DNA from: Suillus spraguei
Taxonomy: Eukaryota; Basidiomycota; Agaricomycetes; Boletales; Suillaceae
Assembly (NCBI GenBank): GCA_016800925.1
Contig: JABCPU010000698.1
Coordinates: forward strand, 1-30,219
Length of the DNA: 30,219 nucleotides
Direction of reading: 5' to 3'
Below are positions 1,264-23,966 of this stretch, one piece after another. The position numbers and the translations under genes are program-made. Numbering within the stretch: the stretch's first letter is position 1; each line of letters opens with the position of its first letter. The notes beneath the pieces were generated by a model. That model searched no databases. It had not been told where the DNA came from and saw only the letters and a program-made list of their open reading frames with translations.

Positions 1264-2445
1264 ATGGATCCTTCAGAGATAAAGGAGAAAATCGGTCGCT
1301 TTCGAATCCTCACTATAGGAAGAGCAAATGCGGGAAAGACTACCATTCTCCGGAGGGTTTGCAATACTCGGGAGAATCCAGTAATCTATGACTGCGCTGG
1401 AAAAAAGGTGCGCACTAGTAAGAGGGTGGCAATGATCACTACTAACCCATTAACATCAGGTCGACCCTGCAGTTTTGGATCCATCCAGAGAGGTATTGAG
1501 GTATGCTCTTGGCTGATGACATGAATTGACATACTCTCAGCGTGGAGAGCACAATATTGAGAATGAATTGGTGTTCCCAAGCAACCCGGGATTCGTCTTC
1601 CATGATTCACGTGGGTTTGAGGCGGGCGGCGAATCCGAGTTTGACCAAGTCAAGGAATTTATCGCGCGCCGTTCAAAGGAAACCAAACTAAAAAACCAAC
1701 TCCATGCTATATGGTAATTGTAATTGATCAATTGCGACGTGTGCCATCTCACATTTCAACACAGGTATTGCATCCCGATGGACGAAGCAAGCAGATCGTT
1801 CACCGCAGGGGAAGTCAAATTTTTCTCCCAGTGTGACACAGGAAGCAGTAAGCGACTATAGTTGATGTTCAACTGATACGCAAAATCAAAATCACAATCC
1901 TCAGTCCCTGTGATAGTATTATTTACCAAGTTCGATGCCTTCTACGACGTCGCCTATGGAGAGCTAAAATCAAAGGGAAAATCAATAAAAGACGCTCGAG
2001 CGCTGGCCCCGACACACGCCCAGGAGTCATTTGCTAATGGGCCGCAATTGGAGTTTCTCAAGGGTGTTCGGTTACCTCCAAAATGCCATGTGTGCCTTTC
2101 CAGTAAGCTAGATGATAGTCAAGTTGTGATACATAATGACCATTGATCCATTAGACATGGACAAGGATGATGCAGATTGTGGACCACTCATCGAACGCAC
2201 AGCTGGAACTCTGGATAGTAACGTGCTTCAGCGATTATTCATCTCGACGCAGCAGATCAACTTGGAGCTCTGCATGAAATATGCAGTTGAGAAGTAACTA
2301 CCCATCGTCTCATTTACCTCGCCACAAGCGTTGACGACGAATATCGTCTAGCATGCTGCCTTACCTCTTGCACCCAGCTGAGACAACTGAGGAATGGCAT
2401 GAGGCGTTAATAGCCAGATGCAGTCTCTGGTTTCCACATGTTTAT
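1264..2445 (+). CDS. P-loop GTPase (G domain-containing protein), exons 1-7
   Basis: Seven exons join in frame: 1264-1407, 1460-1492, 1541-1713, 1765-1847, 1905-2102, 2155-2293 and 2352-2445, giving 288 codons. All introns are GT-AG and 48-58 nt long. The G1/Walker A motif GRANAGKT is at residues 19-26, G3 DSRG at 81-84 and G4 TKFD at 152-155, so it should bind and hydrolyse GTP. This matches a dynamin/septin/HSR1-like small GTPase type that is expanded in mushroom genomes; its cellular role is not known to me. The start at 1264 puts nine residues before the first beta strand. Exon 7 ends in phase 0 after the codons for WFPHVY, and a GTAAGA donor at 2446 leads into the one-codon exon array. 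The open frame would stop soon after any intron retention in this part, so splicing is needed. Confidence 0.85.
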
Positions 2446-2566
2446 GTAAGATTATCAGAAAGTTTGAAGGTTGTTCTCATTTATGTTTGGGGCGTTTACT
2501 TGCAGATGGTGTGTTGATCAATCCTATGGAGTCATGCTGATCAAAGTCCTTGCCCACTCTTCGCAG

Positions 2567-4913
2567 GCTGTGAGTGTGTCGATCCTCCTTCGAGTTCGAG
2601 CGATTCTGATCCAAGTCCTTGCCCACTCTTCGCAGGATGTGAGTGTGTCGATCCTCCTTCGAGCTCGAGCGATGCTGATCCAAGTCCTTGCCCACTTCGC
2701 AGGATGTGAGCGTGTCGATCCTCCTTCGAGCTCGAGCGATGCTGATCCAATTCCTTGCCCACTCTTCGTAGTATGTGAGTGTGTCGATCCTCCTTCGAGC
2801 TCGAGCGATGCTGATCCAAGTCCTTGCCCACTCTTCGCAGCGTGTGAGTGTATCGATCCTCCTTCGAGCTCGAGCGATGCTGATCCAAGTCCTTGCCCAT
2901 TCTTCGCAGATGTGAGCGTGTCGATCCTCCTTCGAGCTCGAGCGATGCTGATCCAAGTCCTTGCCCATCTTCGCAGTATGTGAGTGTGTCGATCTCCTTG
3001 AGCTCGAGCGATGCTGATCCAAGTCCTTGCCCACTCTTCGCAGTATGTGAGTGTGTCGATCGTCCTTCGGGCTCGAGCGATGCTGATCCAAGTCCTTGCC
3101 CACTCTTCGCAGGTTGTGAGTGTGTCGATCCTCCTTCGAGCTCGAGCGATGCTGATTCAAGTCCTTGCCCACTTTTCGCAGGATGTGAGTGTGTCGATCC
3201 TCCTTCGAGCTCGAGCGATGCTGATCCAAGTCCTTGCCCACTCTTCGCAGGATGTGAGTGTGTCGATCCTCCTTCGAGCTCGAGCGATGCTGATCCAAGT
3301 CCTTGCCCACTCTTCGCAGTATGTGAGTGTGTCGATCGTCCTTCGAGCTCGAGCGATGCTGATCCACATCCTTGCCCACTCTTCGCAGCTTGTGAGCGTG
3401 TCGATCGTCCTTCGAGCTCGAGCGATGCTGATCCAAGTCCTTGCCCACTCTTCGCAGGATGTGAGCGTATTGATCCTCCTTCGAGCTCGAGCGATGCTGA
3501 TCCAAGTCCTTGCCCACTCTTCGCAGCTTGTGAGTGTGTCGATCGTCCTTCGAGCTTGAGCGACGCTGATCCAAGTCCTTGCCCACTCTTCGCAGCGTGT
3601 GAGTGTGTCGGTCGTCCTTCGAGCTCGAGCGATGCTGATTCAAATCCTTGCCCACTCACTCTTCGCAGCGTGTGAGTGTGTCGATCCTCCTTCGAGCTCG
3701 AGCGATGCTGATCCAAGTCCTTGCCCACTCTTCGCAGGATGTGAGTGTGTCGATCCTCCTTCGAGCTCGAGCGATGCTGATCCAAGTCCTTGCCCATTCT
3801 TCGCAGGATGTGAGTGTGTCGATCCTCCTTCGAGCTCGAGCGATGCTGATCCAAGTCCTTGCCCACTCTTCGCAGTATGTAAGTGTGTCAATCCACCTTC
3901 GAGCTCGAGCGATGCTGATCCAAGTCCTTGCCCACTTTTCGCAGGATGTGAGTGTGTCGATCGTCCTTCGAGCTCGAGCAATGCTGAATCAAGTCCTTGC
4001 CCACTCTTCGCAGGATGTGAGCGTGTCGATCCTCCTTCGAGCTTGAGCGATGCTGATCCAAGTCCTTGCCCACTCTTCGCAGCGTGTGAGTGTGTCGATC
4101 GTCCTTCGGGCTCGAGCGATGCTGATCCAAGTCCTTGCCCACTCTTCGCAGCGTGTGAGTGTATCGATCCTCCTTCGAGCTCGAGCGATGCTGATCCAAG
4201 TCCTTGCCCATTCTTCGCAGAATGTGAGCGTGTCGATCCTCCTTCGAGCTCGAGCGATGCTGATCTAAGTCCTTACCCACTCTTGCAGGCTGTGAGTGTG
4301 TCGATCGTCCTTCGAGCTCGAGCGATGCTGATTCAAGTCCTTGCCCATTCTTCGCAGTATGTGAGTGTGTCGATCCTCCTTCGAGCTCGAGCGATGCTGA
4401 TCCAAGTCCTTGCCCACTCTTCGCAGGATGTGAGCGTATCGATTCTCCTTCGAGCTCGAGCGATGCTGATCCAAGTCCTTGCCCACTCTCGCAGGCTGTG
4501 AGTGTGTCGATCGTCCTTCGAGCTCGAGCGATGCTGATCCAAGTCTTTGCCCACTCTTCGCAGTATGTGAGTGTGTCGATCGTCCTTCGAGCTCGAGCGA
4601 TGCTGATCCAAGTCCTTGCCCACTCTTCGCAGTATGTGAGTGTGTCGATCGTCCTTCGAGCTCGAGCGATGCTGATCCACATCCTTGCCCACTCTTCGCA
4701 GGATGTGAGCGTATTGATCCTCCTTCGAGCTCGAGCGATGCTGATCCAAGTCCTTGCCCACTCTTCGTAGGCTGTGAGTGTGTCGATCTTCCTTCGAGCT
4801 CGAGCGATGCTGATACAAGTCCTTTCCAACTCTTCGTAGTCTGTGAGTGTGTGAATCAATCCTCCTTCGAGCTCGAGCCGTTCTCAATCAAGCCATCTCC
4901 CGTTTGTTGATAG
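2567..4913 (+). repeat. 69-bp minisatellite, about 34 copies
   Basis: This is the young part of the micro-exon array. The usual unit is 69 bp: a variable dinucleotide plus T, then GTGAGTGTGTCGATC, a middle block with CTTCGAGCTCGAGCGAT, the branch-like GCTGATCCAAG, and CACTCTTCGCAG. Most units are nearly identical. Exceptions are introns of 64 nt (2639-2702, 2980-3043), 65 nt (2912-2976, 4224-4288, 4430-4494), 70 nt (3599-3668) and 71 nt (4843-4913). Private variants, such as CCACATCC near 3364 and 4677 and GTGAGCGTATTG at 3461 and 4705, show that blocks of several units have been copied. Because the unit is a multiple of three, long ORFs appear on both strands; these are by-products. Confidence 0.95.
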
Positions 4914-5667
4914 GATGTGAGCGAGCTCATCATTTATTGAGTGTAAGAATTTCTGACTAAAGCAATCGACGATCTCTCGGCAGGAGGTCAGTACATTGAT
5001 CTTCTACCGACCTTGAGCCACTCACAGAACAAATCATTGATCTCTTGACAGCTTGTGAGTGTGATCATTTTCTGCCGACCTCCTATCTTCCTCATTGATG
5101 CGCTCGCTGATCTATTGTCAGGGTGTGAGTGTATTAATTCTCCGTTGCCCTGACGCCATGGTCTATATGACCGAAAACATTGCTGCTTTATTAACAGCTT
5201 GTGAGTTGGTCCATCCAGTGTCGAACTCGAACCATACTGAGTGACGCGTTGCCCATCCATTCACAGAGTGTAAGCACATTGATCCGCGGTCGAATTGGAA
5301 TATCACTGACCAATGACATTGCCGATTCCCATTGACAGCACGTGAGTAGTGTTCATCTACGGTTGAGCTCAAGTGTCGCTGATTGATTGACAGGTGGTGA
5401 GTCTCTTCACACCAATCGAGCGTCAGCCTAGCTCACCAATCCCAATCTCATGGCTCATCTAGTCACAGCATGTTAGTGTGCTGATCTTCTGTTGAGTTCA
5501 AGCTTTGCTTACTACTGAAATCGCACGTCCCTTAACAGCTTGTGAGTGTTTTTATCTTAGAGTCTTGCTTGCAAACGACATCGCTGATCCATCAATAGGA
5601 GGTTAGTTTCTTCATCCTCCTTTGACTTTGGGTCACACTGAATGAAGATGCTACACATTGGCAGAAA
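4914..5667 (+). repeat. diverged distal part of the micro-exon array
   Basis: Twelve further units (islands 4914 to 5665) whose intron bodies no longer align easily with the 69-bp unit and whose lengths run from 52 to 73 nt. Donors are GTGAGT, GTGAGC, GTAAGC, GTTAGT and GTCAGT; acceptors are mostly ACAG, CCAG-like or TAG. The island between acceptor and donor stays exactly 3 nt in every case. Faint similarity to the young unit (a GTGTGATC- or GTGTCGATC-like start, CTGAT near the middle) indicates common origin. Confidence 0.75.
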
Positions 5668-5888
5668 GTGAGTGTAACGATCCTCAGCAGAGTGGATGAT
5701 TTTCAATTTTCCATCATTGTTTGACCAGATTTCTCGGAAACAGTATGCAGACATGCAGTCTAGGTTACTCTCCGTGGTGTGTCTAATTAGTCACAAATTG
5801 TGCACATTTCTCATGTTGTGAATGTGCCAGGTCTCTGGCTCAACACCCTCGGAGACCGGTGTTCAACTCATTTCTGGTGACTTTTGAG
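5668..5888 (+). other. junction between micro-exon array and C-terminal exon
   Basis: After the last 3-nt island (AAA, 5665) comes a GTGAGT donor. The next plausible acceptor is TTGACCAG at 5727-5728, followed by an open 35-nt exon (5729-5763, reading ISRKQYADMQS). Its donor GTTACT is weak. Another open segment follows a CCAG at about 5834. How these join to the exon at 5889 cannot be settled by eye, because its only nearby acceptor is TTTGAG. Confidence 0.35.
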
Positions 5889-6292
5889 GCTACGTTGCGA
5901 TGAACCTGCTCATTATCGATCATTTAGCCGCTGTCATTATCTTCGAACACTCATTCTACATTTTCGACAAGCAACGCTATCTTCCGGACGAGCAGAAGTC
6001 TGTTCCTTCTTTTAATGTCGCTCTCGAGCGGTACATTGCGTCTCCGCATGCCGCTGCTGTGAGGAAAGCTGTGAGGGTTGCCATACACGGAAACTCGTTT
6101 ACTTGGAAAGCCAAACTACTTGGACGCTTCCATAAGAAGGGAACGCGATCTGTTGGTGACTCTCATGAGTTGGCCAGAAGAATCGTTGAAATCACTTTAG
6201 AGCATCGCCTGTGTATGTTTAGCTGTTATGTCCTGGCAGTAATCCCGCTGATCTGCTTGTCTTCAGCGAGACCTGGCGATGCAACGACATAA
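5889..6292 (+). CDS. probable C-terminal exon(s) of the GTPase gene
   Basis: An open frame from about 5889 contains a hydrophobic stretch (NLLIIDHLAAVIIFEHSF), then a helical charged region of about 80 residues ending near ITLEHRL. A typical intron lies at 6213-6266 (GTATGT, CTGAT, TTCAG; 54 nt), or with the alternative donor 6211, and the frame ends at TAA 6290-6292. The position, strand and lack of its own clear start support its being the last part of the GTPase gene after the micro-exons. The hydrophobic segment could be a membrane-associating helix. It could instead be a separate small gene starting at ATG 5900. Confidence 0.5.
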
Positions 6293-7385
6293 ATGATGTT
6301 CCGGTTCGGAGTGGAGCTTAGGTGTGGATGCAGGTTGCTTGAAAGGTCTGTCGAGGTAGATTCAGGATGTGGAACTGTGCGAAATGGTTGTATAATCACG
6401 CAACTTCGTCTGGTATGGCGTATACGTGTTTGGAGAATGTTGGTCGTCCTCAGTCGAGATAGTGACAAGAGCTACTGCATTTGATGTACCTCTCATGTAT
6501 CCGCGGTCCAATTCCAAGTACATCAAGGTTGAGTTAGTCCCTGTTTCAACCTGCACCACTTTCGTTATGGTCATTTTAACCTTATAAACTCTATGTAGAC
6601 ACATGAACACAAACGTTCCTGAGAACATCGCTGACTCCAGCTGGTTGCATGATGAATGAGATCTCTGAAAAGACCTGGCTGCGAGCGGAAGATGGCCTTC
6701 AAACTCGATAGACTTTGACACACGTTGATTTTCAGGGACAGCGTGCGATGTGCATCAGGATATGATCATGGCTCTGAGTTGAGGTTTTACAAACTGGGTG
6801 CATTATTCGATATAAATTCAGCATTGGCCCCTGCTCTGTGTAGGTGACAGTCAAAACCCATTATCACTTTTGCTCATATGATATCGTGCGGATCATATTC
6901 TGGAATCAAGATGCGTCTTCTCAAGAACCGATAGACGACGCCATCGTGGAACAAAGGATAAACCGACTTACACAGTACCTTATAGCGTGTCTTATGAAAT
7001 GTGAGCGCATTAAAGTTTAACTGTATCCAGGAGCCTGCTGCAGCGACCGACGACGACTCCATTGCTTAGTATCAGGATCCTGGTGTGTAGTTCAAGATAT
7101 CAAATTATCGATTCTCCTGTGGTTCGAGTTGTGCTGGGACATAAGAGCTATTGGTAGTGAGCGTATTGATTCACACTCGCACCATGCTGAGATTTTCGGA
7201 AAGGAGGGGTTGTTGCGACTGTCCTCATAAGTCAGACATACAGCGGAGGGACAGTCAAGTCTGCCTTGACAGGTTGACTTGTCGGAGTTTCGATGCAGTC
7301 CTCGGCCTCCTCGGCTGTCTTGGAGCATCCAACGTCTGCTACATTCCTCGCCCCAATTGATCAAGGATAGATCTAGATTCGGACT
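6293..7385. other. region with decayed array units, no supported gene
   Basis: No convincing gene. Several segments resemble old array units: about 6503-6520 shares ATCCGCGGTC-AATT with 5281-5297; 7013-7040 has GTGAGCGCATT and TATCCAG; 7086-7135 shares a TCGATTCTCC and TTCGAG core; 7157-7190 begins GTGAGCGTATTGATT, like 3461 and 4705. They do not form a regular chain of acceptor, 3 nt and donor. Confidence 0.4.
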
Positions 7386-7614
7386 GTGACCACGACAAAG
7401 TATTTGAAAATAGCAAGAGTAAGTCTTTCTTTCAAATTTATTGTGGCTTCGCGTTCTCTCACTCCCGCAGCAGAGTGCCAGCGAGTGACGATCAATGTCA
7501 GTACTTCCATCTTTTACATGCTCTCTAACTTCTTGAAGAAATTTGAGCGAGACTGTCCCAGGTTGTTGTCAACGGTGTTCAATATAACTCCCATGAGCGT
7601 CAGCCTCACACAAA
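7386..7614 (+). other. possible 5' exons of the NACHT gene
   Basis: A clear intron-like segment (GTAAGTC at about 7411 to CCCGCAG at about 7470) and a second possible one (GTCAGTACTT to TTCTTGAAG, about 7498-7540) suggest short upstream exons, with an ATG at 7386. The reading frame into 7615 could not be fixed, so no N-terminal domain is named. Confidence 0.3.
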
Positions 7615-8661
7615 ATGTTTGCAAGGGACTCGGTGGATCTCCTGAAATACATCTACGGATTCCTAGACAATACAGAGAAGAATCGACTCGTTTGGCTGCA
7701 TGGCACGGCTGGCGTTGGAAAATCTGCCATTGCATTTACAGTAGCTGAAAAATTGAAAGGTCTAAAAGTGAGCGAAGAGACAAATGTCGAAACGCGGTTG
7801 ACGGAAACATTCTTTTTCTCGTGCAAACACACCAAATGGTGTACGGGTGGATATTTCTTTGCGACGCTCGTCTACCAGCTTGCCACAAATTTTCCAAGCA
7901 TCCGGCGAGATGTGAATAGAGCCATCTGCAACAATCCCGCTCTACTAGACCTAGACACGCCTCTCTGCGACCAGATGGAGGCTCTCTTTCTCCAACCCCT
8001 CAGGAAACTTCAACTCAGATTGCGTGTATGTCCCCCTTTGACGTTTGTTGTCGATGCCCTTGATGAATGCACATGCGAACCTGAGCTTACCGATCTCATC
8101 CTTTCCCTTGCGCGGGCTCTTCATGAGCCTGATCTGCCCATGACCCACATTCTGCTCACGAGTCGCTCGGAATCGCATATTTGTAAAGCCTTTCGGAATG
8201 AAGAAGTGCGCCCGCTGGTGTGCGAGATACCAATGAAAACTTCTGGGGAGGGCGTTACTACTATCATCTCGCTAGATGGTGCCGATATCGACAATGACAT
8301 CTGTATATTTCTACAGCATTTATTCAGAGAGCTACAGTGCAGCCATCCCAATTTCCCGCAACCCTCGTGGGGTGACCTTGCGAAGCTGGCAAGGCGAGCT
8401 GGCAGACGATTCATCATGGCGTCGACGACGACGAAATTTATTGTCGATGGATACAAGGATCCACGGGATCAGTTACAACTGATGCTCGAACTGACAAGCG
8501 AGCTGCTAGCAGGAACGGAGGTGTACAAGTTATACGATTATATCCTCTCTACGTGTACCGACCCCAAGCGGGCATACCTGCACTTGCAGACCCCCTGTCG
8601 CTATCACAAATCTCGAAACTCCTTGGCCCTGGTCAGGGCTGTGATGCTGAGACGACGCTAG
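7615..8661 (+). CDS. NACHT-domain STAND NTPase (NLR-like), core fragment
   Basis: The 348-codon frame contains a full NACHT core: Walker A GTAGVGKS at residues 30-37, an aromatic FFFS strand at about 66-69, Walker B VVDALDEC at 145-152, and a sensor-like HILLTSRSE at about 180-188. In fungi such proteins are NLR-like switches used in heterokaryon incompatibility and other non-self responses: the NACHT domain oligomerises on nucleotide exchange, an N-terminal effector signals, and C-terminal repeats sense. Here the start ATG is probably internal to the real gene. The frame is lost at about 8560-8580: the expected continuation (a PLSLSQISKLLG helix and a winged-helix-like IYHSSIRDYVSDP motif) is in another frame, and about 10-15 residues seem missing at the switch. 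It may be a pseudogene, unless a small intron repairs it. Confidence 0.8.
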   Translation: MFARDSVDLLKYIYGFLDNTEKNRLVWLHGTAGVGKSAIAFTVAEKLKGLKVSEETNVETRLTETFFFSCKHTKWCTGGYFFATLVYQLATNFPSIRRDVNRAICNNPALLDLDTPLCDQMEALFLQPLRKLQLRLRVCPPLTFVVDALDECTCEPELTDLILSLARALHEPDLPMTHILLTSRSESHICKAFRNEEVRPLVCEIPMKTSGEGVTTIISLDGADIDNDICIFLQHLFRELQCSHPNFPQPSWGDLAKLARRAGRRFIMASTTTKFIVDGYKDPRDQLQLMLELTSELLAGTEVYKLYDYILSTCTDPKRAYLHLQTPCRYHKSRNSLALVRAVMLRRR

Positions 8662-8830: not shown

Positions 8831-9275
8831 AGGAGGACGAGACTGGTTGCAGACTGAGGGAGGACGAGACTGGCTGCAGACCCAGGCAGGACTAGATTGG
8901 CTGCAGACCCAAGCAGGACGAGACTGGCTGCAGACTCAGGTAGGGCGGGACTGGCTGCAGAGGATGGGACTGGCTGCAGACTTGGAGAGGATGGGACTTG
9001 CTGCAGATACAGGGAAGACGGCACTGGCTGCAGACAGAGGGAGGATGTAACTGGCTGCAGACCCAGGCAGGACGAGACTGGCTGCAGACAGGGAGGGAAA
9101 ATTTGGCTGCAGACCCGGGGAGGACGAGACTGGCTGCTGACAGAGGGAGGACGAGACTAGTCGCGGACCCGGGGAGAACGAGACTGGCTGCAGACCCAGG
9201 GAGGACAAGACTGGTTGCAGACCCAGGGAGGACGAGACTGGCTGCGGACTCGGGGAGTACGAGATTGGCTGCACA
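8831..9275 (+). repeat. 27-bp minisatellite at the end of the NACHT gene, about 17 copies
   Basis: The unit is a GGACGAGACTGGCTGCAG core plus ACCCAGGGA-like filler, 27 bp, encoding the 9-residue unit GRDWLQTQA in the frame of the NACHT continuation. The first five copies stay in that frame; shortened copies near 8955 and later shift it. Copies are imperfect, with changes in GACTGG, CTGCAG and the filler. Since 27 is a multiple of three, other frames and the minus strand also stay open. Confidence 0.9.
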
Positions 9276-11869: not shown

Positions 11870-12234
11870 TTGTGCGGTGTGTTTGAAGGTCCGACTCATG
11901 ATCAGCTGATTTCATTTTCGAAAATCCAAATAAAATTTTTGCCCCTATCTACAACGAGTTCCTCGGGCGCAATTGTGTCTGGCCATTGCATTCCCCGCGC
12001 TAACATTGCGTTCTATCCAAATCGTTCTTCGTCGATGGTAAATCGAAGACATTTTCCCTTGCGGCCTGCGTATGCAACCACATTTAACGGGTGTCAAGGG
12101 TTAACGCTGGCGCGCACCGTAGTCGACCTTCGAACGAGTCTTTTTGGTCACGGTCAATTGTACACAGCTTTGTCGAGAGTGAGATCGTCAAGAGACACAG
12201 GACAGCGCGAACATTGTATTTCCTGAATTGCTAT
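11870..12234 (+). pseudogene. C-terminal fragment of a Helitron PIF1-like helicase
   Basis: The frame carries the conserved end of Helitron RepHel helicases: RRHFPLRPAYATTFNGCQG (motif V-like, normally close to AMTINKSQGQ), then LTLARTVVDLRTSLFGHG and QLYTALSRVRSSRD (motif VI region). The Rep nuclease and Walker A/B parts are missing. The end of the ORF overlaps the truncated end of the DIRS-like element on the other strand. No CTRR-plus-hairpin Helitron terminus was identified. Confidence 0.75.
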
Positions 12235-12967
12235 TATAGACATCAATGTGTAGTGTATATGACATGGCGGTATCGGTGATAGTGAGTGTGTGTCGTAAAG
12301 GCACCTTCCGGTAAGTCTGACGGCTGATTGCATCTGGCCAGGTCAATTCTCCAAGACGTTGGAGTGTTGCAAAACCGGTGAATAACAGAGCAAGGAAGAG
12401 ACTATCATCATGTTGCAGTGAAGAACCAAAAAACAAGCGCACACGTTGCAAGTCATCCACACACAAAGGTAACTTCCTTTGTATTGGTTTTGACATACGG
12501 CGTTTGCAACCACGGAGAGTCCGTGCAATCAAGGGTGAACGTCGCGCGGCCCGTACCATGGGGTATGTGTCCTCTAGCCGACTGGCGATGCCCGAAAGAT
12601 ATGAGTCAACTGACCGAGGTTCAATATGGTGTGATAACCATACAACATAAAAAGATAATGTATCCACTGTGGGATCAATAGGGAGGTGGTGCAGCCGACA
12701 GAAAGTGATGTAAGAGTTGAGATGTGAGTCGTAAACAGACGCAGTAGTGGAATCAATAGCAAAACCAAGCGCCACTGAACGTTCGTATAAGAGACGCTCG
12801 TGTGTCCAGGCTGCCTGGATGATAGTGAAACTTGCATCATTTTTTTGCTGCCCCCAGCGCATTCCGAGGGGGTTTGAAATCAAAAAAGCTGGCATCTGGT
12901 GCCAACTCCAAAACTCTTTCGTTTTGCAAACGTGAGAGTGCGTCGGCAACCATATTCTCACATCCAC
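12188..12967 (-). pseudogene. tyrosine recombinase, truncated (DIRS-like)
   Basis: The N-terminal core-binding domain is well kept: a helix with LNSYITFCRLHHLPIDP, then SVDSYLSGIASRLED and ARTLRGCKRRM. The start of the catalytic domain follows (LLFTGFATLQRLGELTW), including the first catalytic arginine in QRLGEL. The HxxR and tyrosine parts are absent because the ORF runs into unrelated sequence at about 12235. It overlaps the RNase H ORF by about 130 bp in another frame. Confidence 0.75.
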
Positions 12968-13451
12968 TAATGTGCCCTACACGTAACTCCACCTCATACT
13001 CGAGTAGAACATCCATTGCTGAGAGCATGATGGAATTATAAGGAGGATGCGCACGGAGAGAGTTGAACATCGACACTGTATTTGTGTTATCGGTGTATAT
13101 GAGCATTCGGGGTGGGACTTCTGTCATGTTAGGGATTGCGTGAATTGCGGAGCAAACCGCCAATGCTTCAAAGAAAAAGATGGTGTTTTTAGGAGCATCC
13201 GCAGGCAAAGATGATTGACCCGCAAAGTTATCATGAGGGAACCAGAGACCCATTCCTACACCAGATGCGTCGGTATAAGCAACCACGACATCATCAGATG
13301 ATGGATCAAAATCCAAAGATTTGTAAAACATGAGCCCTGGTAAATGTTCCTGGTTTGAGCAAAGGGAAAATATTGAAACTCCATTCGCACCATCCGGCAA
13401 GCTGTTGATATTCACGAAGCGTCCAACGATAGTTTTTACAGGCAAAGTCAC
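12837..13451 (-). pseudogene. RNase H domain of the DIRS-like element
   Basis: The frame has the RNase H acidic residues in order: D in VVAYTDASGVGMG, E in FFFEALAVCSAIH, D in MLIYTDNTNTV, and a C-terminal GHISGCENMVADALSR, the typical end of retroelement RNase H. It follows the RT in a different frame, so a frameshift lies between 13306 and 13451. Confidence 0.75.
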
Positions 13452-13985
13452 GTAGATCCTTGATCAACTCATTCTTTTTGTGCCTCGGCAAAGTAGCAGA
13501 CATAGCGTTAGGGTCGACGTCGAAACCAATAATGGTCAGAGTTGAACCAAAGAGTTGTTTGGGACGATCATGAGGGATTCCGAGCTCGTCCCAGAGTTGT
13601 AACAGACGAGTCTGTTTCTCAGGGTAGTCAGTTTGATAAGGCGGATAGTACAACATACGCTCTGCTAGCTCAAATGAAAAAGAGTCGTCCATATAAAGTT
13701 TAAGAGCATCGATAAGCATGCGATGAATTGCAATCCAAGTGACCAGTGACATAAACGAGATTCAGACCTTAGGGGATCCTCGTCCTCCAAAGTTATTGCA
13801 ACGATCCACATGACGTTGACCTTGTACCGTTAGCACTTGCTTGGTTTGCCACAGCGGGTGCATAGGTAACCGCCGAAAAGCTTGAGAAACATCCGATTTA
13901 AAAAGGACCAATTTATCATTAGGATGTTCTTGTCAAAATTGCAGCAGGGAAGCACCAAGCGAATGCAAACCGTCAAGTTTGGTGC
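13306..13985 (-). pseudogene. reverse transcriptase palm of the DIRS-like element
   Basis: One frame from about 13985 to 13306 carries GLHSLGASLLQF, motif A with LFKSDVSQAFRRLPMHP, a QRHVDRCNNFGGRGSP segment and motif C YMDDSF at about 13687-13698, followed by thumb sequence. Two in-frame TGA codons (13933-13935 and 13762-13764) break it. Both sit where related elements usually have an amino acid (probably CGA and TGG), so they look like recent C/G-to-T/A changes. Confidence 0.75.
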
Positions 13986-14132
13986 CTCTTGTTGGAATAT
14001 TTAGTGACGAGCTCGACTCGGAAGGAGCCGAAACGGTGGCTTAAACCTTAAATCGTCGGTGGATAAATACAGTAGCTAGTTTTTGTGTACGCTACGCGTT
14101 TGTTAGCGGGTTCCCTGTACAATCGAGTTAGA
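13986..14132. other. about 145-bp insertion inside the DIRS-like RT
   Basis: The RT alignment to the family expectation is interrupted here: no frame continues between LRHVVEV (ending 14133) and the next RT block. The segment, read on the plus strand, begins near a TGTTGGAATATT, a start common in fungal LTRs, but no matching CA end or target duplication is found. Confidence 0.35.
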
Positions 14133-14617
14133 TCATACTTCGACGACGTGTCTGAGACTTGCGGATAACTCAATACCTCTAACGGCATCTGAATCAATCA
14201 TGGAGTTCAGCGAGTATTCTCCTGCTGTGTGATCCACTACAAGGCGTAGTTTATCTGGATTGGGTTTAGGGACGGTATGCATTGGCACACTGTACATTCC
14301 GGGGAATAAATCTGGACCAAAAGACTCTGATACACGTCCAAGACGTATTTCTTCTCGTAGCTGTTCCTCAATAAACTTTTCTTGATCCGCTGATTTTGCA
14401 CAGGTGTGCATTGAGTTATTGTTTATAGAGGGATATGACTCATCTGAAGCATCTGTCCATGGCCAAAAACCTTCACATAAGGCTCGACACACCACAAAAC
14501 GAAAGGTTGATTTGGATGGTCAGCAAGGAGAACTTGAAACTGATCAACGTTGATCGGTGTTACTATTTTGAAGAGATCTGGATGATTGCATACTGTGCGG
14601 GCTGCATCACTGTCCAT
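14133..14617 (-). pseudogene. N-terminal RT region of the DIRS-like element
   Basis: Two overlapping frames together give HPDLFKIVTPINVDQF, a DHPNQPFV stretch, then VCRALCEGFWPWTDA, FGPDLFPGMYSVP, a VPKPNPDKLRLVVDHTAG block and SLNSMI. This is the conserved region that opens the RT in fungal DIRS-like elements. A frameshift near 14495 separates the two parts. Confidence 0.7.
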
Positions 14618-15011
14618 AAGGTAAGTAGGAGCTCTGGGACAGGATCCGCATACTCTGTAGAACGTGCGGTTGGGCTAAATGAATTATCGGCTGGCGACCA
14701 AATCAGCCCTCGGCAAAACGCGGACGTTTAAGGTATTTTTCAGGCTGATTTAGTGTTCCCATCCTCATGATGTTTTGTTTTGACATGACGACGGGCACAG
14801 ATACATCCATTTTGTTCGACATTGCAGACGTGTGCGTAACGACAGGTGGCTGCACTGTGTGTGCATTCACCATTATTCCATTTACAGCAGGGTTCTCATT
14901 TGGTGACATTTTCTCGACCTCCTCCAGTGGATTTGTTAGATTCCTCCGTTTCATTATGCAGTCTTGCTCCAGTGGAGAAGTGAGAGCTGTAGATGTCCCT
15001 GAAGCACTCAA
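14618..15011 (-). pseudogene. gag-like N-terminal region of the DIRS-like element
   Basis: ORF 15011-14703 (102 codons, MSASGTSTALTSP start) ends RPRFAEG and stop. A frame just after it reads IWSPADNSFSPTARS, the usual proline-rich linker before the RT. Low complexity and no zinc motif are visible. Assignment rests on position. Confidence 0.5.
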
Positions 15012-15021
15012 AGTCTGACAA

Positions 15022-15495
15022 TGTTACAGTCGTACGTGCCCCTATTCATTTTCCCTTTATACTCTTACTGTATATCACGTCACATGACTCTGACTCATAT
15101 GCTCAACGCATCTGTACAAAACATGCCTTCCTTATTAGGATACGCAGTTACATTCTCACGGTTACTTGGTCTGTGCGCACACATTGGCTTATTTAAGCAC
15201 AGTGTACTTGTAGTAAATTCCTTACTTTAATCTTACTGGGTTTTACCTGGAATCTCCTTCGCTTAGGTCTCCAACCTAAGTCGTCTTGAATCGTCTCTAA
15301 GTCTAAGCACTCCTTAGCCTTAGTCCCTATTCTTGCAGAACTTCTAAGACTTGTCTTAGAGCCGAACCCTTGATCGTACTCGGAACGCGTTCCTTGTAAC
15401 TTTCACCTTGTCCTTCTTTGGACATTGTAAGAACTTCCCAGCAGACCGCCTGTGTCTTTTCACTGTCGCTGGTGACGCCACCCCAGTTCGTAACA
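15022..15495 (+). repeat. 5' LTR of element A (hybrid)
   Basis: 474 bp, begins TGTTAC and ends GTAACA. The first 120 or so bases differ from the 3' LTR at about 19 positions, the remaining 355 at only about 5, suggesting that the two parts come from different LTR copies. Confidence 0.92.
15190..15234 (+). promoter_or_regulatory. LTR promoter: TATA-like box and predicted transcript 5' end
   Basis: TATTTAAG at 15190-15197 lies 34 bp upstream of ACTTTAATCTT (15224-15234). The latter is the exact reverse complement of the putative PBS at 15497-15507, so the R region should begin at about 15224. The same pair of signals is found in the LTR at 22175 and in the LTR at 23293. Confidence 0.6.
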
Positions 15496-15496
15496 A

Positions 15497-15507
15497 AAGA
15501 TTAAAGT
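15497..15507 (+). other. primer-binding site (self-priming type)
   Basis: AAGATTAAAGT starts two bases after the LTR end. It is complementary over all 11 bases to the predicted 5' end of the element's own RNA at 15224-15234, as in the Tf1/sushi group where the mRNA's first 11 nt prime minus-strand synthesis. I saw no obvious tRNA-like match. Confidence 0.65.
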
Positions 15508-15676
15508 CACCCGATCGTCGACTATCCAGTCTTCGACCCTGAACCCCGAACTAGCATACACGTACGCTGAGCAGACTGTCAAGAGAAGCCCTCTGACAAA
15601 AGACAAGCCCTGACGGACAGCAAGACAGCGCGTGTAGGCATCGAGAAAGTATAACTCATCAGACGAATCAGCAAAC

Positions 15677-16513
15677 ATGGCAACCAAAGAATTCGAATAC
15701 AAGATCGGCCAGCCAAAAGCTTTTGATGGAGATCGCGACAACTCTCACGAATTTATCCAGTCGTGCAATCTTCATTTTGATATCAACGAAAAGCTTTACG
15801 CAACCGACAAGCAGAAGATCATTTTCATAACATCCTTCAAGACCGAAAGGAATGCCAAATCCTGGAAAGAACAATTCCTTGACCATGCTCAATCAACCGA
15901 CACCTCTGGACAAAAAGTTGGTTATGGGACAATGGTGGATTTTATGAAAAGCTTTAAAGAAGCCTTTGAGCCAGTGGATACCAAAGGAACTGCACTCACG
16001 AAACTCAGGGATCTCAAACAAGGAACAGGAGATCTTCACACTTACATCGCTGATTTCGAGGCACTTGCAGCCAAGGCTCATATCACCGATAATGCAACAA
16101 AGATCCAATTCTTCCAAGATGGCCTGAGTTGGGGTATCCTTACAAAGCTTTTCGCACTAGGAGATGTCTCCGAAGTATTTCGAGACGTTGTGCTGCAATG
16201 CGTTTCCATTGACAACTCCTATCACCGCCTTCAAGCCATGAGGACACGTCATGCTCCACAACAAAAGAAGAAGAACTATGTAAATGCACGGTACATTCCG
16301 AACCGTGATTCCAATGCAATGGTCGTAGATCGAATCTCCGATACGGAGAGATCCAAATGCATGAAGAAGGGACAATGCTTCGGATGCAAGAAAACAGGAC
16401 ACTGTATTCATAACTGTCCTGACAGAAAGAAGAAAACCCCACTCCGACAAACTGAAGTCAAAGAAGAAGATGAAGATGAAGAAACTGTGAGGCGGATTGT
16501 AGAGGATTTTTGA
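15677..16513 (+). CDS. Gag polyprotein, element A
   Basis: 278 codons, intact. The N-terminal and central capsid-like region (start MATKEFEYKIGQPKAFDGD, then an FITSF and SWKEQFLDHA region) is typical of Retrotrans_gag proteins. A CCHC zinc knuckle, CFGCKKTGHCIHNC, lies at residues 234-247 with C234, C237, H242 and C247. It ends in a lysine- and then glutamate-rich tail (KKKTP, EEDEDEE) and VRRIVEDF before TGA 16511-16513. Gag should form the virus-like particle and bind the element RNA. Pol lies in the -1 frame and overlaps here. Confidence 0.92.
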   Translation: MATKEFEYKIGQPKAFDGDRDNSHEFIQSCNLHFDINEKLYATDKQKIIFITSFKTERNAKSWKEQFLDHAQSTDTSGQKVGYGTMVDFMKSFKEAFEPVDTKGTALTKLRDLKQGTGDLHTYIADFEALAAKAHITDNATKIQFFQDGLSWGILTKLFALGDVSEVFRDVVLQCVSIDNSYHRLQAMRTRHAPQQKKKNYVNARYIPNRDSNAMVVDRISDTERSKCMKKGQCFGCKKTGHCIHNCPDRKKKTPLRQTEVKEEDEDEETVRRIVEDF

Positions 16514-17151
16514 CTTGGAGAAACAAAGATTCGATGTATGTTTCTCCTAATGTATTACTAAGACTTGTATGTGCTGTAGGTGAAAGAAAAGAACTTCGCG
16601 TCCCTATCACCCTTCACTCGTGTACTCGCTTGAAATCTGTCAATACCACCGCCGTCATTGATTCAGGAGCGGCAGGAACATTCATTTCCGAGGAGTTTGT
16701 GAAACTCCATCAAATCACACGACAAAAACTCAAAACACCATTTCAAGTTACTATGGCTGATGGAACTCTCATCAAAAAAGGACCAATCACACACTACTGT
16801 CTCCTAGTGGTCAAAATTGATGAACGAACCATGTATGGGAAATTCAACATCACCAAACTAGGAAGAAGGGATCAAATCCTTTTGGGAATCCCATGGTTAT
16901 GCGCAATGAACCCAAGTATAGATTGGGCCGCTGAGACACTTGTCCTTCCCCGAACAACAAAATCAGATGAAATCGAAATTGATATGGATATGGATCGGAA
17001 GAAGAATGGACTACCCTCAGCCTTCAATGGTCATTCTAAGAAATGGGAACATTCCCGACTTCTGAGATCCCTCGTCATCCCTCTTGAGCTAGAACCGGAA
17101 GTACAAACACCACACACCACCAATCCTACTCCACGTGTACAACTTCCATGA
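16510..17151 (+). pseudogene. Pol N-terminal part, aspartic protease, element A
   Basis: The frame is open from 16480 and is -1 relative to gag. There is no ATG at its start, so it is probably reached by frameshifting. The retropepsin motif AVIDSGAAGTFIS contains the catalytic D, followed by an ILLGIPWL flap-end motif. TGA at 17152-17154 ends the ORF. In element C the same codon is CGA, in CCG-CGA, so both CpGs have changed (CCA-TGA). The frame continues open after the stop through a charged linker. Confidence 0.85.
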
Positions 17152-17154
17152 CCA

Positions 17155-18828
17155 GTATCACCGATTCCCCGTGCGGAAAAGCGTAAGAATGACTCCGAAC
17201 CCGAGCATCGGGCCGGACAAGAGCCTATTGAGCAACAGCCAATAGAAGAACAGAAGTATGGAAAAAGAAAAGCCGAAGAGGAGATCCCCGGACAAGATAC
17301 CAATGTGCCAAAGTTATCCAAGTTCTATGTACCTCCGAAAACTCTTCAACATACCCCCTTGGCTTCGATAGAAGAAACCCCCGATGAAGAAGAACCCATA
17401 CCCTCGTTGATCCCAACAGAGGATGATGACCAATTTAACACCATGCAAGATGTCTGGCATGCACCAGAAGTGCAAGAGATTTCTTCCTATGAACTTGGAG
17501 ATGGAGAATTCCTTGTGGAATATGATATTGATAGAGTCAGTATGAGAATCATCGAAGAAGTATCCATGGATACACCCCTTACACATGATGGAACTTCTCG
17601 ACTCGAACAACTCTCCAACTACTCCGCAATTCCCCTCCCTCCTCCAAAGTACAGTAACAAGGCTCAAGAATTCACCACGGATGAAAAGGAAAAGAAAAAG
17701 AAATCCTTCGAAGAACTGATCCCGGACTATTTGCACGATTTTGCAGACATCTTTGCTAAAGATGGACTGAACAAACTACCTCCCGAATGCCCTGGTATCG
17801 ATCATCGGATTGACACTAAACCCGGTTTCATCCCTTGTACGTCTAAGGTTTACCCGCTATCGGAAAAAGAACGCGCTGCCGTCAAAACGTTTATTGATGA
17901 AAATGTTGTGAAAGGTTTCATCTCAGAATCGAAATCACCTCAAGCCAGTGGCTTCTTCTTTGTGGGAAAGAAGAGTGGAGAATTGCGTCCCTGTCAAGAT
18001 TATCGCTACATCAATGATTGGACAGTCAAGAACGCTTACCCGCTCCCACTCCCTATCTCCCTTGTCGCACGCCTTCATAATGCACAGTTCTTCACGAAAA
18101 TGGATATTCAGTCTGGTTATAACAATATTTGCATCCATCCCGATGATCACTGGAAAGCTGCTTTTACTATGGAATTCGGCCTTTTTGAACTGAACGTTAT
18201 GTTCTTTGGCCTTTGCAATTCCCCAGCTACTTTCCAAGCATATATGAATCATACCTTCCAACAGGAAATCAATGAAGGATGGATGGTTATCTACATGGAT
18301 GATATCCTGATTTTCTCTACAACTATGGAAGAACATCGCGAACGGACAAGACGGGTTTTGATGAAAATACGAAAAGAACGTCTGTTCTTGAAACCGGAGA
18401 AATGCACCTTCGATGCAGAAGAAGTGGAATACCTCGGAATGATAATTCGTCCTGGACAAGTTGCTATGGATACCGCTAAGACCAAGGGAATCTCCGAATG
18501 GCCAGTCCCAAAATCTGTAAAAGATGTTCGGTCATTCCTTGGTTTTTGCAACTTCTACCGCATGTTCATTTCCCATTATTCTGACATCGCCCAACCTCTT
18601 ATCGATTTAACAAAGAAAGATAAGGCCTTTGATTGGTCAACCGAATGTATGGACACCTTTGAAGAATTGAAACGATGCTTCACATCCCAACCGGTACTCC
18701 GTAACCCTGATCCTTCCCGACAATTTGCTATTGCCACCGATGCTTCACTCGTACAACTGGTGGAGTTCTCTTGCAGACTGATGAAAATGGCGTTTATCAT
18801 CCATGTGCATATCTCTCGCAGTCTTTGA
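17155..18828 (+). pseudogene. Pol: linker and reverse transcriptase, element A
   Basis: Same frame as the protease part. After a linker rich in E, P and K come DYLHDFADIFAKDGLNKLP, the RT fingers (VGKKSGELRPCQDYRYIND), motif A with FFTKMDIQSGYNNI, and motif C YMDD at 18292-18303. The start of RNase H (FAIATDASLV) is followed by a shift: relative to element C, one G is missing just after GTA at about 18753, and the frame ends at 18828 out of register. Confidence 0.85.
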
Positions 18829-20618
18829 ACCCTGCAGAACACAATTATCAGATCTTTGACCGGGAACTCCTTGCCGTAATCCGGGCATTAAATGAATGGC
18901 GCCACTATCTTGAAGGAAACCCACATCCCATCCTGGTATTCACTGACCACAAGAACCTTCTGTACTTTCGAAGTGCACAGAAGCTTACCCGTCGCCAAGC
19001 ACGTTGGCAATTGATTTTATCTATCTATGATATCAAATTGCACCATGTTGCAGGTACCAAACTAGCAGTACCTGATGCACTATCCCGCCGGCCCGACTAT
19101 AACTCCGGCAAAGACGATAATGAGGACCAGACTCTCCTCCCTGACGCTCTATTCATTCGACTTATTGACTCTGACCTGAAGGATGTTTTATCATCCTCTG
19201 ACCCCCTCGACGACCCTGTCTTCAAAACAGCGTCTGATGCCCTTGATGGCGTGTGCCTTCCCCCTATGAAATCAGCACTCTCTGACTGGAAGATTGAGGA
19301 GAACGTCCTCTACTTTAAGAATCGCGCCTACATTCCACCGGTGCATCGTTCCGATATCTTGAAAAGGTATCATGATCATCCTGCCGCGGGCCATCCCGGT
19401 AGATTCAAAACTGAGGAACTTGTGAAGAGAGAAGCCTGGTGGCCTGCCATGGGCTCCTATATTCGGAAATACATTGAGGGTTGCGCCCTTTGTCAGCAAA
19501 TGAAGGCGGATACACATCCCGTTCGACCCCCACTTACCCCGATTTCCTCCTCTGCGACCCGTCCTTTCTCTCAGGTCTCTGTCGATCTTATCACTGACCT
19601 CCCTGTCTCTGGAGGCTTTGACAGTATCATGGTCGTGGTAGACCATGGCCTTACGAAGGGGGTGATTATTGTCCCTTGTTTGAAAACTATCACCTCCGAA
19701 GGCGTTGCTAAACTATTTTTGAAACACGTCTACCGACGATTTGGACTCCATGACAAAGTCATCTCAGATCGAGGCCTGCAATTCATATCTCGTTTCTCTA
19801 AGGAACTTGCCCGACTTCTTGACTACGTCATCGCTCCATCCACAGCTTATCACCCACAGACTGATGGTCAAACCAAAAGACTAAATCAAGAACTTGAAAC
19901 ATACCTGCGTATCTACTGCCACAACAATCCAGAAGATTGGGTAGAACATCTACCAATCGCCGAATTTGTCCATAACCACCGAAAACATGATGCAAGGAAT
20001 GCATCACCCTTCTATCTGATGATGGGATATGAACCACATGCTATCCCTCATCTTATCCCTGATTCATCCGTCCCTGCAGCAGAAGATCGAGTACAATCCC
20101 TGCAGAAGATAAGAGAAGAAGCAATCACCTGCCATAATATCGCAATGCAAACAATGGCCGAATGATCCCGAGGAGATAAGTACATCCCATGGAAGATTGG
20201 GGATAAGGTCTGGCTATCTGCCGCAAATCTTAGACTCAAACTCCCATCAAGGAAACTTGCGCCGAAGTGATATGGACCTTTCCTGATTATCGACGTCTTA
20301 TCCCCCATCACGTTCACGCTCAAACTCCCTCTACAGTGGAAAATTCATCCATGTTCCACACTTCAGCCTTATCGTCCTATGTATAGCGAAACGGACATAC
20401 ACAGTCCGAACTTCCCTGAACCACCACCTGACATCATTGAAGAAGAGGAAGAATATGAAGTAGACGCAATTCTTTCTCACAAAGGAACCGGCACTCGCCG
20501 ACGCTATCTCGTTTCTTGGAAAGGATATTCATTGGGAGATAACAAATGGCTCCCAGAGAAGAACTTGAAGAACTCCGCTCGAATCTTGAATGCTTATAAG
20601 AAGCAACACGCCCTCTGA
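18771..20618 (+). pseudogene. Pol: RNase H, integrase and chromodomain, element A
   Basis: This frame restores the RNase H (NYQIFDRELLAVIRALNEW, VFTDHKNLLYF, VPDALSRRPDY), then the integrase HHCC finger (H...HPAAGHPGRF...CALCQQMKAD), the catalytic D in VSVDLITD and D in ISDRGLQF. The third catalytic residue is AAA (Lys) at 19875-19877 where element C has Glu, in DGQT-x-RLNQ. TGA codons at 20163-20165 and 20268-20270 replace CGA. After a compensated indel pair near 20348-20386, a chromodomain (YEVDAILSHK, RRRYLVSWKGYS, WLPEKNL) ends at TGA 20616-20618. Confidence 0.88.
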
Positions 20619-20672
20619 TTATCCTTTAGTCAATCAACTCGCACCAGCACTTGATCAACTACCACCATCGAA

Positions 20673-22141
20673 ATGTCTTTCCCCACTGCCTACATCACCC
20701 CCGTCACTGTTGCCAACGATAACTCCGACTCTGATGTTGAAAACTACGGATCCCTTACCACAGAAATCGACAACACTTCTTACATCGAAGCCGCCCTTCT
20801 ATGTGAAAGACATGCCCTTGAAATTGAAAGAATCCTCACAGAAAAAGGCGCCTTTCCGGCCCTCCTCCTCGTCAACATTATCCGCACCACCGCTCTCATT
20901 GAAGCCACAGCTAAGGAAACTACCAATCCTACATTTGGTCAACGCTTCCTACATCTTCAAAAATGTATTCGTTCTTATGCTATGCTGTTGCTTCCCGGTT
21001 CTTTTAAAAGCAATGTTGAAGAAGCTATTCACATCGTGGCCGAACGTCAAGCAGGTGTTGCTCGACCTCCCTCTCCGCAGGAAGATATGCCACTTCCTAT
21101 TCCAGTACCCTCTTCTTCGCGTGTGTATTCTAGTGTTAACGCCCTTGCTGGCTTATGCACTGCTGTTCAAGAGATCGGGCAGCTTACCAATGCGGTCATC
21201 GAAACCATCCAGCAATCAGTTGCTGAAACCAGAGCAGCCAGAAACTTAGTTGAAGAAGCCATTACTGATCTACAACAAACACAAGCCGACCTCACTTCCC
21301 CCGAACCCCGTCTCCTATCGAGAAACCAACCTCACCATCTCCCATCATAGTCTCTCTCGACCATCCTCCGTGGCTATATGAACCCTGCACAGAAGAACAG
21401 TGTGAGGCCGCGAAACTATTGGGAATCCCTGTCACTGAGCTGGTAACACTCGGTCCTCGACTTCGCAACCTCCACATCCACCCTCCCATGACTATTCCGT
21501 CATCATTTGGTCCAATGGATCCTATCTCGCCAGTTTTAGTAAAAGACTTCGGCATCACTTCCTCTTCTTCCTCTAACGAACTTCTTGCAGTTGCTGAACG
21601 AGGGACTACTCCTGACCTCCCCGCCTCCGCGTACATGCTAACCAGTAAGCAACAAGCGCAGCTTAGGCGTGACAACGCCGTCGCCTTAAAATGCATGACG
21701 CGACAGAAAGGGAAGAAGCGTGCTAGATCCACCAGTCCCAAGCCCGTTATTTCACCATCACTACTACGCATGGCCATCTCTAGCACTAACAAAAACATGA
21801 AATGCCGACTATGTGGCATCGCCGGACATCGGCAAAAGAATTGCCTTGACTATCAGTGCCAAATCTGCCTTCGACACACTCCTACCCATCTATCTCTTTA
21901 TTGCCCCCAGCGTTGTGGGGAACCCCCATTTACGCTTACATGGAAGGACGATGGATTCTATGATGCACTGCGTAGGTGGGAACAGTATCTTATTAACCGT
22001 CGATGACGCAAAGAGGGTCGACGGGCGAGGACTGTAGCAGAGGAGGAAGCAGCCTATATGTTAGGAGGAAGTGCCGCTGATGAAGACGTCGCTAACTATG
22101 ACGACTATGATCCCGTCTATGACGACAACAGAGATGTTTGA
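20673..22141 (+). pseudogene. ORF3: zinc-knuckle protein between pol and the 3' LTR, element A
   Basis: ORF3 begins 54 bp after the pol stop and ends 33 bp before the LTR, about 489 codons. It has an N-terminal helical region (ALEIERILTEKG; VEEAIHIVAERQAGVARPP), a proline-rich patch, a likely coiled coil (EIGQLTNAVIETIQQ and AARNLVEEAITDLQQ), a basic KGKKRARSTSP that could be a nuclear signal, a CCHC knuckle CRLCGIAGHRQKNC, a second CQIC...H...YCP finger, and an acidic C-terminus (DYDPVYDDNRDV). This copy is broken: local out-of-frame indels at about 21300-21365 with TAG, a one-base loss near 21405, and TGA 22004-22006. There is no signal peptide or membrane segment, so it is not an env. Function unknown. 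Confidence 0.75.
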
Positions 22142-22160
22142 AAGTCGGTGATTTTCAATG

Positions 22161-22174
22161 TAATATGGGGGTAA
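22161..22174 (+). other. polypurine tract of element A
   Basis: TAATATGGGGGTAA directly precedes the 3' LTR start TGTTAC. A short G-run next to the LTR is the usual plus-strand primer site in gypsy elements. Confidence 0.6.
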
Positions 22175-22650
22175 TGTTACAATTGTACGTGCCCCTATTC
22201 ATTTTCCCTTTGTTTCTTTACTTGTATGATGTGTCACATGACTTTGCCTTATATGCTCAATGCATCTGTACAACACGTGCCTTCCTTATTAGGATATGCA
22301 GTTACATTCTCACGGTTACTTGGTCTGTGCGCACACATTGGCTTATTTAAGCACAGTGTACTTGTAGTAAATTCCTTACTTTAATCTTACTGGGTTTTAC
22401 CTGGAATCTCCTTCGCTTAGGTCTCCAACCTAAGTCGTCTTGAATCATCTCTAAGTCTAAGCACTCCTTAGCCTTAGTCCCTATTCTTGCAGAACTTCTA
22501 AGACTTGTCTTAGAGGCCGAACCCTTGATCATACTTGGAACGCGTTCCTTGTAACTTTCACCTTGTCCTTCTTTGGACATTGTAAGAACTTCCCAGCAGA
22601 CCGCCTGTGTCTTTTCACTGTCGCTGGTGACGCCACCCCAGTTCGTAACA
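22175..22650 (+). repeat. 3' LTR of element A
   Basis: 476 bp, TGTTAC to GTAACA. It has the same TATTTAAG box and ACTTTAATCTT (22378-22388) as the 5' LTR. It is joined directly to codon 2 of a gag sequence, with no PBS or leader. Confidence 0.92.
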
Positions 22651-23292
22651 GCGACCAAAGAATTCGAATACAAGATCGGCCAGCCAAAAGCTTTTGATGG
22701 AGATCACGACAACTCTCGCGAATTCATCCAGTCATGTAATCTTCACTTCGATATCAATGAAAAGCTTTACACTACCGACAAACAGAAGATCATTTTCATA
22801 ACATCCTTTATGACCGAAAGGAATGCCAAATCCTGGAAAGAGCAATTCCTTGACCATGCTCAATCAACCGACACCTCTGGACAAAAAGTCGGTTACGGGA
22901 CAATGGTAGAGTTTATGAAAAGTTTCAAAGAAGCCTTCAACCCGGTGGATACCAAAGGAACCGCACTCACGAAACTCAGGGACCTTAAACAAGGAAGTGG
23001 AGATCTTCACACCTACATCGCTGATTTCGAGGCACTTGCAGCCAAGGCTCATATCACTGATAACGCAACGAAGATCCAATTCTTCCAAGATGGCCTGAAT
23101 TGGGGTATCCTTACAAAGCTTTTCGCACTAGGGGACGTTTCAGAAGTATTCCGAGACGTTGTTCTGCAATGTGTGTCCATTGACAATTCCCATCATTGTC
23201 TTCAAGCCATGAGGACACGTCATACTCCACAACAAAAGAAGAAGAACTACGGAAACGCACGTTACATCCCCAATCGTGATTCCAACGCAATG
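22651..23292 (+). pseudogene. gag fragment of a third element copy (B)
   Basis: Starts GCGACCAAAGAATTC, corresponding to gag codon 2 onward, and runs in frame for about 214 codons to AACGCAATG, where the next LTR begins. It lacks start codon, leader, zinc knuckle and everything downstream. It matches gag of A and C closely (for instance an IIFITSFMTERNAKSW segment). The frame is open into the flanking LTR on both sides only by chance. Confidence 0.9.
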
Positions 23293-23768: not shown

Positions 23769-23769
23769 A

Positions 23770-23780
23770 AAGATTAAAGT
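23770..23780 (+). other. primer-binding site of element C (self-priming type)
   Basis: AAGATTAAAGT, exact reverse complement of 23497-23507 in the LTR; same arrangement as in element A. Confidence 0.65.
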
Positions 23781-23966
23781 CCCCTTTGATCGTCGACTAT
23801 CTAGTCTTCGACCCTGAACCCTGATCGCCTAGATCAGCAGACTAGCGTACACGTACGCTGAGCAGATTGTCAAGAGAAGCCCTCTGACAGAAGAAAGCCC
23901 TAACGGACAGCAAGACAGCGCGTGTAGGCACCGAGAAAGTATAACTCATCAGAAGAATCATCAACC

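Follow-up and report, generated by a model that had tools for sequence, protein, structure and literature searches.

The window analyzed here is a 30,219-nt stretch of the genome of Suillus spraguei, an ectomycorrhizal mushroom (assembly GCA_016800925.1, contig JABCPU010000698.1, positions 1-30,219, forward strand). It contains a GTPase gene in which seven upstream exons (1264-2445; 288 residues) are separated from four downstream exons (134 residues, resuming in phase 0) by a long chain of very short islands, each lying between an AG and a GT. The features of the gene are listed below, with the basis of each in brackets.

1264-1407 (+), exon 1 of the GTPase, with P-loop GRANAGKTT (open, splice signals; matches to family proteins)
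1460-1492 (+), exon 2 (gene model)
1541-1713 (+), exon 3 (gene model; homologues)
1765-1847 (+), exon 4 (gene model)
1905-2102 (+), exon 5 (gene model)
2155-2293 (+), exon 6 (gene model)
2352-2445 (+), exon 7, ending in phase 0 with ..WFPHVY (gene model)
2506-5667 (+), predicted chain of 47 micro-exons (island scan)
2534-4878 (+), homogenised part of the chain, 69-nt period, 34 copies, 92% matches (tandem-repeat analysis)
2910-2911 (+), sole 2-nt island, AT (AAT in contig C1100), a probable assembly indel (scan and contig comparison)
5729-5776 (+), exon following the chain, starting in phase 0 (gene model; comparison with P0004)
5777-5830 (+), short intron with an in-frame TGA (gene model; residues missing from the transcript-like protein P0004)
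5831-5876 (+), exon (gene model)
5877-5927 (+), short intron with a second in-frame TGA (gene model; residues missing from P0004)
5928-6212 (+), exon encoding a conserved C-terminal region (AAVIIFEHSFYIFDK..) (gene model; homology)
6267-6292 (+), last exon with stop codon (gene model)

An earlier note on this DNA had placed the chain in phase 0 behind a conventional seven-exon GTPase, and exon 7 indeed ends in phase 0 at 2445. Its downstream acceptor near 5888 proved too late, as the exon after the chain begins at 5729 and is followed by two further short introns. The same note regarded the chain as a peptide tail; because the conserved C-terminal region lies downstream and phase 0 is kept on both sides, the chain is instead read as an internal linker. 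Degeneration of the window copy into a pseudogene was considered and rejected: both TGA codons fall within introns, and since the transcript-like P0004 lacks the residues around both (MQSRLFSVAFGSSPLENILQLGSAAVIVFEHSF), the window copy is read as intact. The same two sites are CGA in sister loci, and loci C453 and C392 are open through both.

The encoded protein family was characterized through four relatives. Pfam assigned P0004 to the MMR_HSR1 GTPases (23.7 bits against a cut-off of 21.9), with P0022, P0049 and P0101 falling short of the cut-off by 0.6-2.3 bits, and detected no NACHT or ankyrin family in these four proteins at an E-value of 0.01. An AlphaFold2 model of P0004 had a mean pLDDT of 84, dropping to ~50 at residues 291-320, within the linker. 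Foldseek returned weak matches for this model, topped by bacterial dynamin-like and mouse IRG GTPases (best E 3e-4; TM about 0.2-0.41 among the best 14 matches listed; 11-13% identity), which share with it a GTPase domain followed by helices; we know of no microexon chain in IRG or dynamin-like GTPases.

The island scan, run for lengths of 1-7 nt with a fixed donor list, confirmed the reported 47 units, 46 with islands of exactly 3 nt and one of 2 nt, spaced 55-76 nt apart with predicted introns of 52-73 nt in between. The introns of the last ~12 units have diverged and AG-NNN-GT is retained. A control scan of 115,374 bases of other sequence on both strands gave a single run of three islands of mixed length, and the longest run in 500 mononucleotide shuffles of 2441-5720 comprised four. 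Contig C1100, 98.4% identical to the window (contig C922), reads AAT at the 2-nt island at 2910, and the four 2-nt islands of C1100 itself have 3 nt in the window, so this island is probably an assembly indel. The two contigs differ by 2 substitutions and 2 indel columns in chain codons and by 7 substitutions and 13 indel columns in chain introns, numbers too sparse and indel-rich for a codon-versus-intron test.

The earlier note suggested looking for AG-NNN-GT chains in paralogous GTPase genes of related genomes. In the same genome, protein and DNA searches, followed by analysis of fetched stretches, revealed 16 chain-bearing loci, each with 13-87 islands. The counts, which are lower bounds wherever a donor lies outside the scan, are 47 for the window and C1100, 27 for C522 and C333, 31 for C453 and C432b, 87 for C392, 16 for C1120, 24 for C158, 44 for C432a and C888a, 15 for C888b, 34 for C158b, 21 for C751, 13 for C669 and 32 for C292. 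Over 14 loci, leaving out the near-duplicates C1100 and C888a, 449 islands comprise 440 of 3 nt, seven of 2 nt, one of 5 nt and one of 7 nt. The 2-nt islands are found in the window (one), C522 (four) and C333 (two), and are likely assembly indels as well, since ordinary exons of C522, C333, C1100 and C392 also contain frame breaks. None of the 440 three-nt islands is a stop codon, which carries little weight because many units are copies. The 69-nt unit has 531 matches in the genome, and those among the matches listed all lie on contigs with GTPase chains. Annotated Suillus spraguei protein P0067 could be placed at C292, where 222 of its 272 residues are found exactly in blocks that span residues 49-272 but for two, the compared stretch stopping short of the first exon. 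A related GTPase match on C360 showed no chain within 4.1 kb. A fragment on C191 was discarded as a chain locus, as it holds the C-terminal part only, with no chain upstream; this segment (L079, C191:143800-150300) contains a 99% copy of window positions 5909-6349 that lacks the upstream chain and GTPase and is broken or rearranged. A second GTPase family, 39-49% identical, lies head to head with chain genes on C158, C432, C453, C751, C888, C1100 and C292; no chain was found in the fetched stretches of the two members examined of ~15 matches.

The array might be a minisatellite that grew within one intron and is removed whole (2446-5728), its islands being remnants of copied splice sites. The near-identity of ~34 units fits this origin, as do Suillus models that end at or before the chain (P0080, exactly where the linker starts, and P0067) or have only a short linker (P0001). 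Against it stand the diverged loci C292, C432a and C158, where all 100 islands are still 3 nt long (32/32, 44/44 and 24/24). The 31 chain introns of C292 have a median pairwise identity of 0.66, with some pairs up to 0.97, compared with a median of 0.60 for shuffled interiors; mean diversity among 66-nt introns is 0.27 in C432a and 0.14 in C158, and intron lengths in these three loci represent all classes modulo 3. A YTNAY branch-like motif occurs in 30 of 31 C292 introns (shuffle mean 18.3, maximum 26) and in 40 of 41 C432a introns (mean 21.2, maximum 29); of the 11 distal window introns 10 have it, which does not exceed shuffles (mean 6.5, maximum 10). A conservation test on E-L-G was discarded as circular, the E-L-G codons being the anchor itself. 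Since long variable linkers also appear at the chain position in transcript-like proteins (below), removal as a single intron is considered very unlikely.

Alternatively, the array could be translated unspliced into a 23-residue repeat (VSVSILLRARAMLIQVLAHSSQ-like) with one hypervariable position each, in the style of a repeat receptor. Such a reading is not absurd for C432b or the window, because the entire C432b chain is open over 688 codons and 23 of the 46 window introns keep the frame and lack stops; the consensus 66-nt intron has no stop in frame 0, and P0125, P0052 and P0098 show read-through of intron-like pieces. Nonetheless, the frame is broken by 14 of the 46 introns of the window and by 25 of the 86 in C392, whose lengths are not multiples of 3; in C292 just 2 of 31 introns both keep the frame and lack stops; and no 22-residue repeat is present in nine measured linkers. 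We consider translation of the unspliced array very unlikely.

The protein database yielded relatives, among which those on short JGI contigs include four full-length proteins (P0004, P0022, P0049 and P0101) and others without the N-terminal part. Nine relatives, a count that leaves out P0005, P0092, P0098, P0102 and P0112, have linkers of 19-48 residues at the exact chain position and come from contigs of 1135-1848 nt. An unspliced chain, at 69.7 nt per codon, would by itself occupy ~1.3-3.3 kb, in each case more than the contig, so that, judging by size alone, the contigs are probably spliced RNA or cDNA. These records establish that variable in-frame linkers occupy the chain position in relatives on short contigs: the linkers are of low complexity and hypervariable among the seven relatives compared, and that of P0004 (WFPH-IWARYYYDDVRDLDVLDLLRDLDVLLLLKREKLDRSDCEK-MQSRL) has a residue alphabet close to the genomic chains. 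P0121 and P0122 agree at 89% before the linker and 97% after it, and at 16 of 38 positions inside. The linker of P0092 is only a short one. No RNA of the window gene or of its species turned up among the records examined, and none of the transcript-like records corresponded to a genomic chain at each codon. Over 26-48% of its length, the queried half of P0049 shows 97-98% similarity to Suillus cothurnatus models, and a search with the linker half of P0101 matched only P0101 itself. Long linkers of low complexity are also present in P0101 and P0112, which come from less related sources, a hint that the chain predates Suillus.

Some records appear to retain chain introns. P0098 has 17 extra residues, ASRLIPHYLCLLIIIYQ (ASR..YQ), that are missing at the same place in P0022, as would result from one retained phase-0 intron with a GC donor and a CAG end deduced from the residues. 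P0052 and P0125 run into chain-intron-like sequence (scores of 48 and 51 versus shuffle maxima of 38 and 39), and for the retained pieces of P0098, P0005 and P0080 the scores against the introns of the genome stayed within the range of shuffles.

We put at roughly 0.87 the probability that the chain consists of serially spliced single-codon exons, which would add ~47 residues as a hypervariable linker joining the GTPase domain to a conserved C-terminal helical region. The single-codon exons proposed at the outset are supported by the 100/100 three-nt islands and above-shuffle branch motifs of diverged chains, by the lack of stops in 440 islands, and by the presence of the expected linkers in transcript-like proteins. 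Recognition would proceed intron by intron (intron definition), relying on the strong GTGAGT donor and the CTGAT-like branch site of each.

The diversity of codons was compared with that of the introns around them in 128 units from seven loci (C1100 left out), each a 3-nt island with a following 66-nt intron more than 80% like the consensus. At codon positions 1, 2 and 3 nucleotide diversity was 0.625, 0.704 and 0.061, versus 0.040 in the intron. Sixty identical introns are preceded by nine different codons, and seven kinds of codon occur among 27 that have an identical 66-nt intron on either side. In C432b the codon values reach 0.675, 0.675 and 0.655 versus 0.005 in the intron, with AGA, GAC, TTT and GAA preceding the same intron. 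When the similarity filter was dropped and all 14 loci that have seven or more units with 66-nt introns were analyzed, diversity at codon positions 1 and 2 was at least fourfold that of introns in 11 of 14 loci; in C432a and C888a codon diversity was just two- to threefold that of introns, and C292 showed no clear codon excess (0.81/0.52 versus 0.50, 7 units). Four features can be read directly from the assembled DNA: the length of the islands, the phase-0 junctions at either end of the chain, its occurrence at 16 loci, and a codon diversity exceeding that of introns. Codons of C432b and C888b mostly do not end in T (AGA, GAC, GAA, TTG; TTT is an exception), whereas those of the window group are mostly NNT, even though the introns of the two groups are nearly alike in sequence.

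The notion that chains change by an intron-plus-codon unit also gained support, from chain lengths of 13-87, probable alleles of unequal length and a linkage between codon and intron. The codon CGT of C392 stands after 14 of its 16 introns of 74-75 nt and after none of its 56 introns of 66 nt, indicating that the copying unit in this locus is an intron with its following codon; linkage of a codon to the following intron was not clear, with one column at P 0.03. On contigs C432 and C888 a common pair of genes occurs in unchanged order. The C432a and C888a chains are an identical 44 codons, and those of C432b and C888b have 31 versus 15. In the upstream flank of the latter pair 1237 of 1275 aligned bases agree (5 gap columns) and in the downstream flank 1458 of 1467 (66 gap columns), an agreement of 97-99%, and the contigs probably represent two haplotypes, with C432b and C888b an allele pair.

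The codon diversity could be unselected, a remnant of old coding sequence whose introns were later made alike by gene conversion or RNA-mediated intron copying, which is compatible with serial splicing since it concerns the cause of diversity and not the splicing. C292 and C432a, with diverse codons and diverged introns, resemble the ancestral state that it presupposes, and the diversity peak is exactly exon-wide; yet the probable alleles differ in chain length, the codon alphabets are small and locus-specific, pointing to cassette copying, and CGT is linked to its preceding intron. We regard an unselected origin as possible, though doubtful. Under serial splicing, the cassette may be gained or lost by unequal exchange, altering the protein one residue per step with the frame kept, and the codons might further be held different by selection, perhaps because the linker recognizes something; a recognition role for the chain GTPases is something we can only infer. 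Skipping of a cassette is predicted to leave the frame intact, so that many isoforms could arise from one gene. On a broader and tentative proposal, to which we give slightly less than even odds, Suillus would build hypervariable recognition GTPases residue by residue: intron-codon cassettes duplicate, selection together with exchange holds the introns identical and lets codons diverge at as many as all three positions, and haplotype-specific chains together with codon skipping make up a germline and splicing diversity generator, evolved separately from that in truffle NLRs.

Similar devices exist elsewhere. Schistosoma micro-exon genes produce variable proteins from tandem frame-neutral microexons, as the chain may do, and differ in having longer exons and encoding secreted proteins. 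Introners, mobile spliceosomal introns, likewise yield many near-identical introns per genome; in contrast, the listed matches of the 69-nt unit sit on GTPase-chain contigs and are not scattered over other contigs. A dozens-long chain of single-codon exons, thought in the earlier note to lack a known parallel, has a precedent in Tuber melanosporum, whose NACHT-ANK genes are described as alternatively spliced with tens of, or multiple, codon-sized microexons (PMC3689799 and PMC4986451, citing Iotti 2012), as also stated in a passage of PMC10197012. The abstract of PMC11121469 calls functional microexons previously undescribed in filamentous fungi, yet cites Iotti 2012. Tuber, as described in PMC3689799 and PMC4986451, is likewise an ectomycorrhizal fungus with an expanded NTPase family, tens of one-codon exons and a proposed diversification of recognition proteins. 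The feature typical of its nank genes, tens of tandem 3-nt exons, is matched here by 46 of the 47 window islands and by 16 loci, with splicing predicted. The Tuber proteins are ascomycete NLRs with ankyrin repeats, whereas a basidiomycete GTPase is concerned here; the cited passages make no mention of hypervariable codons between homogenised introns; and the Tuber genes are reported to be alternatively spliced, whereas the present chain is known from sequence. No one-codon exon chain in Suillus or in GTPase genes was reported among the best-ranked open-access literature matches listed. As far as these searches go, the kind of structure is known from Tuber, and what is new is its occurrence in another phylum and another protein family, with hypervariable codons set between homogenised introns and a difference between probable haplotypes.

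If the serial-splicing reading holds, one spliceosome copes with dozens of successive 3-nt exons, and the genes offer a natural, frame-proof route to single-residue protein variation as well as a testable example of the diversification of putative recognition proteins in mycorrhizal fungi. The same device in NTPase families of two fungal phyla would point to convergence. The P0080 and P0067 models, both ending at or before the chain, suggest why such genes are mis-annotated.

The surroundings of the gene hold further features. About 1.3 kb 3' of it lies an ORF for a NACHT/NPHP3_N NTPase (7597-8661, +; Pfam), so that two recognition-like NTPase genes are neighbors. This ORF is followed at 8832-9273 by a 27/54-bp tandem repeat of ~17 copies, one frame of which reads as RDWLQTQAG-like repeats. 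Across much of 12188-30087 the ORFs are presumably retroelement-like, with two related sets on the + strand. Directly upstream of the GTPase gene, inverted arms at 269-371 and 775-861 (47 and 36 nt, 96% and 89% complementary) enclose a stretch of ~600 bp that resembles a small terminal-inverted-repeat element.
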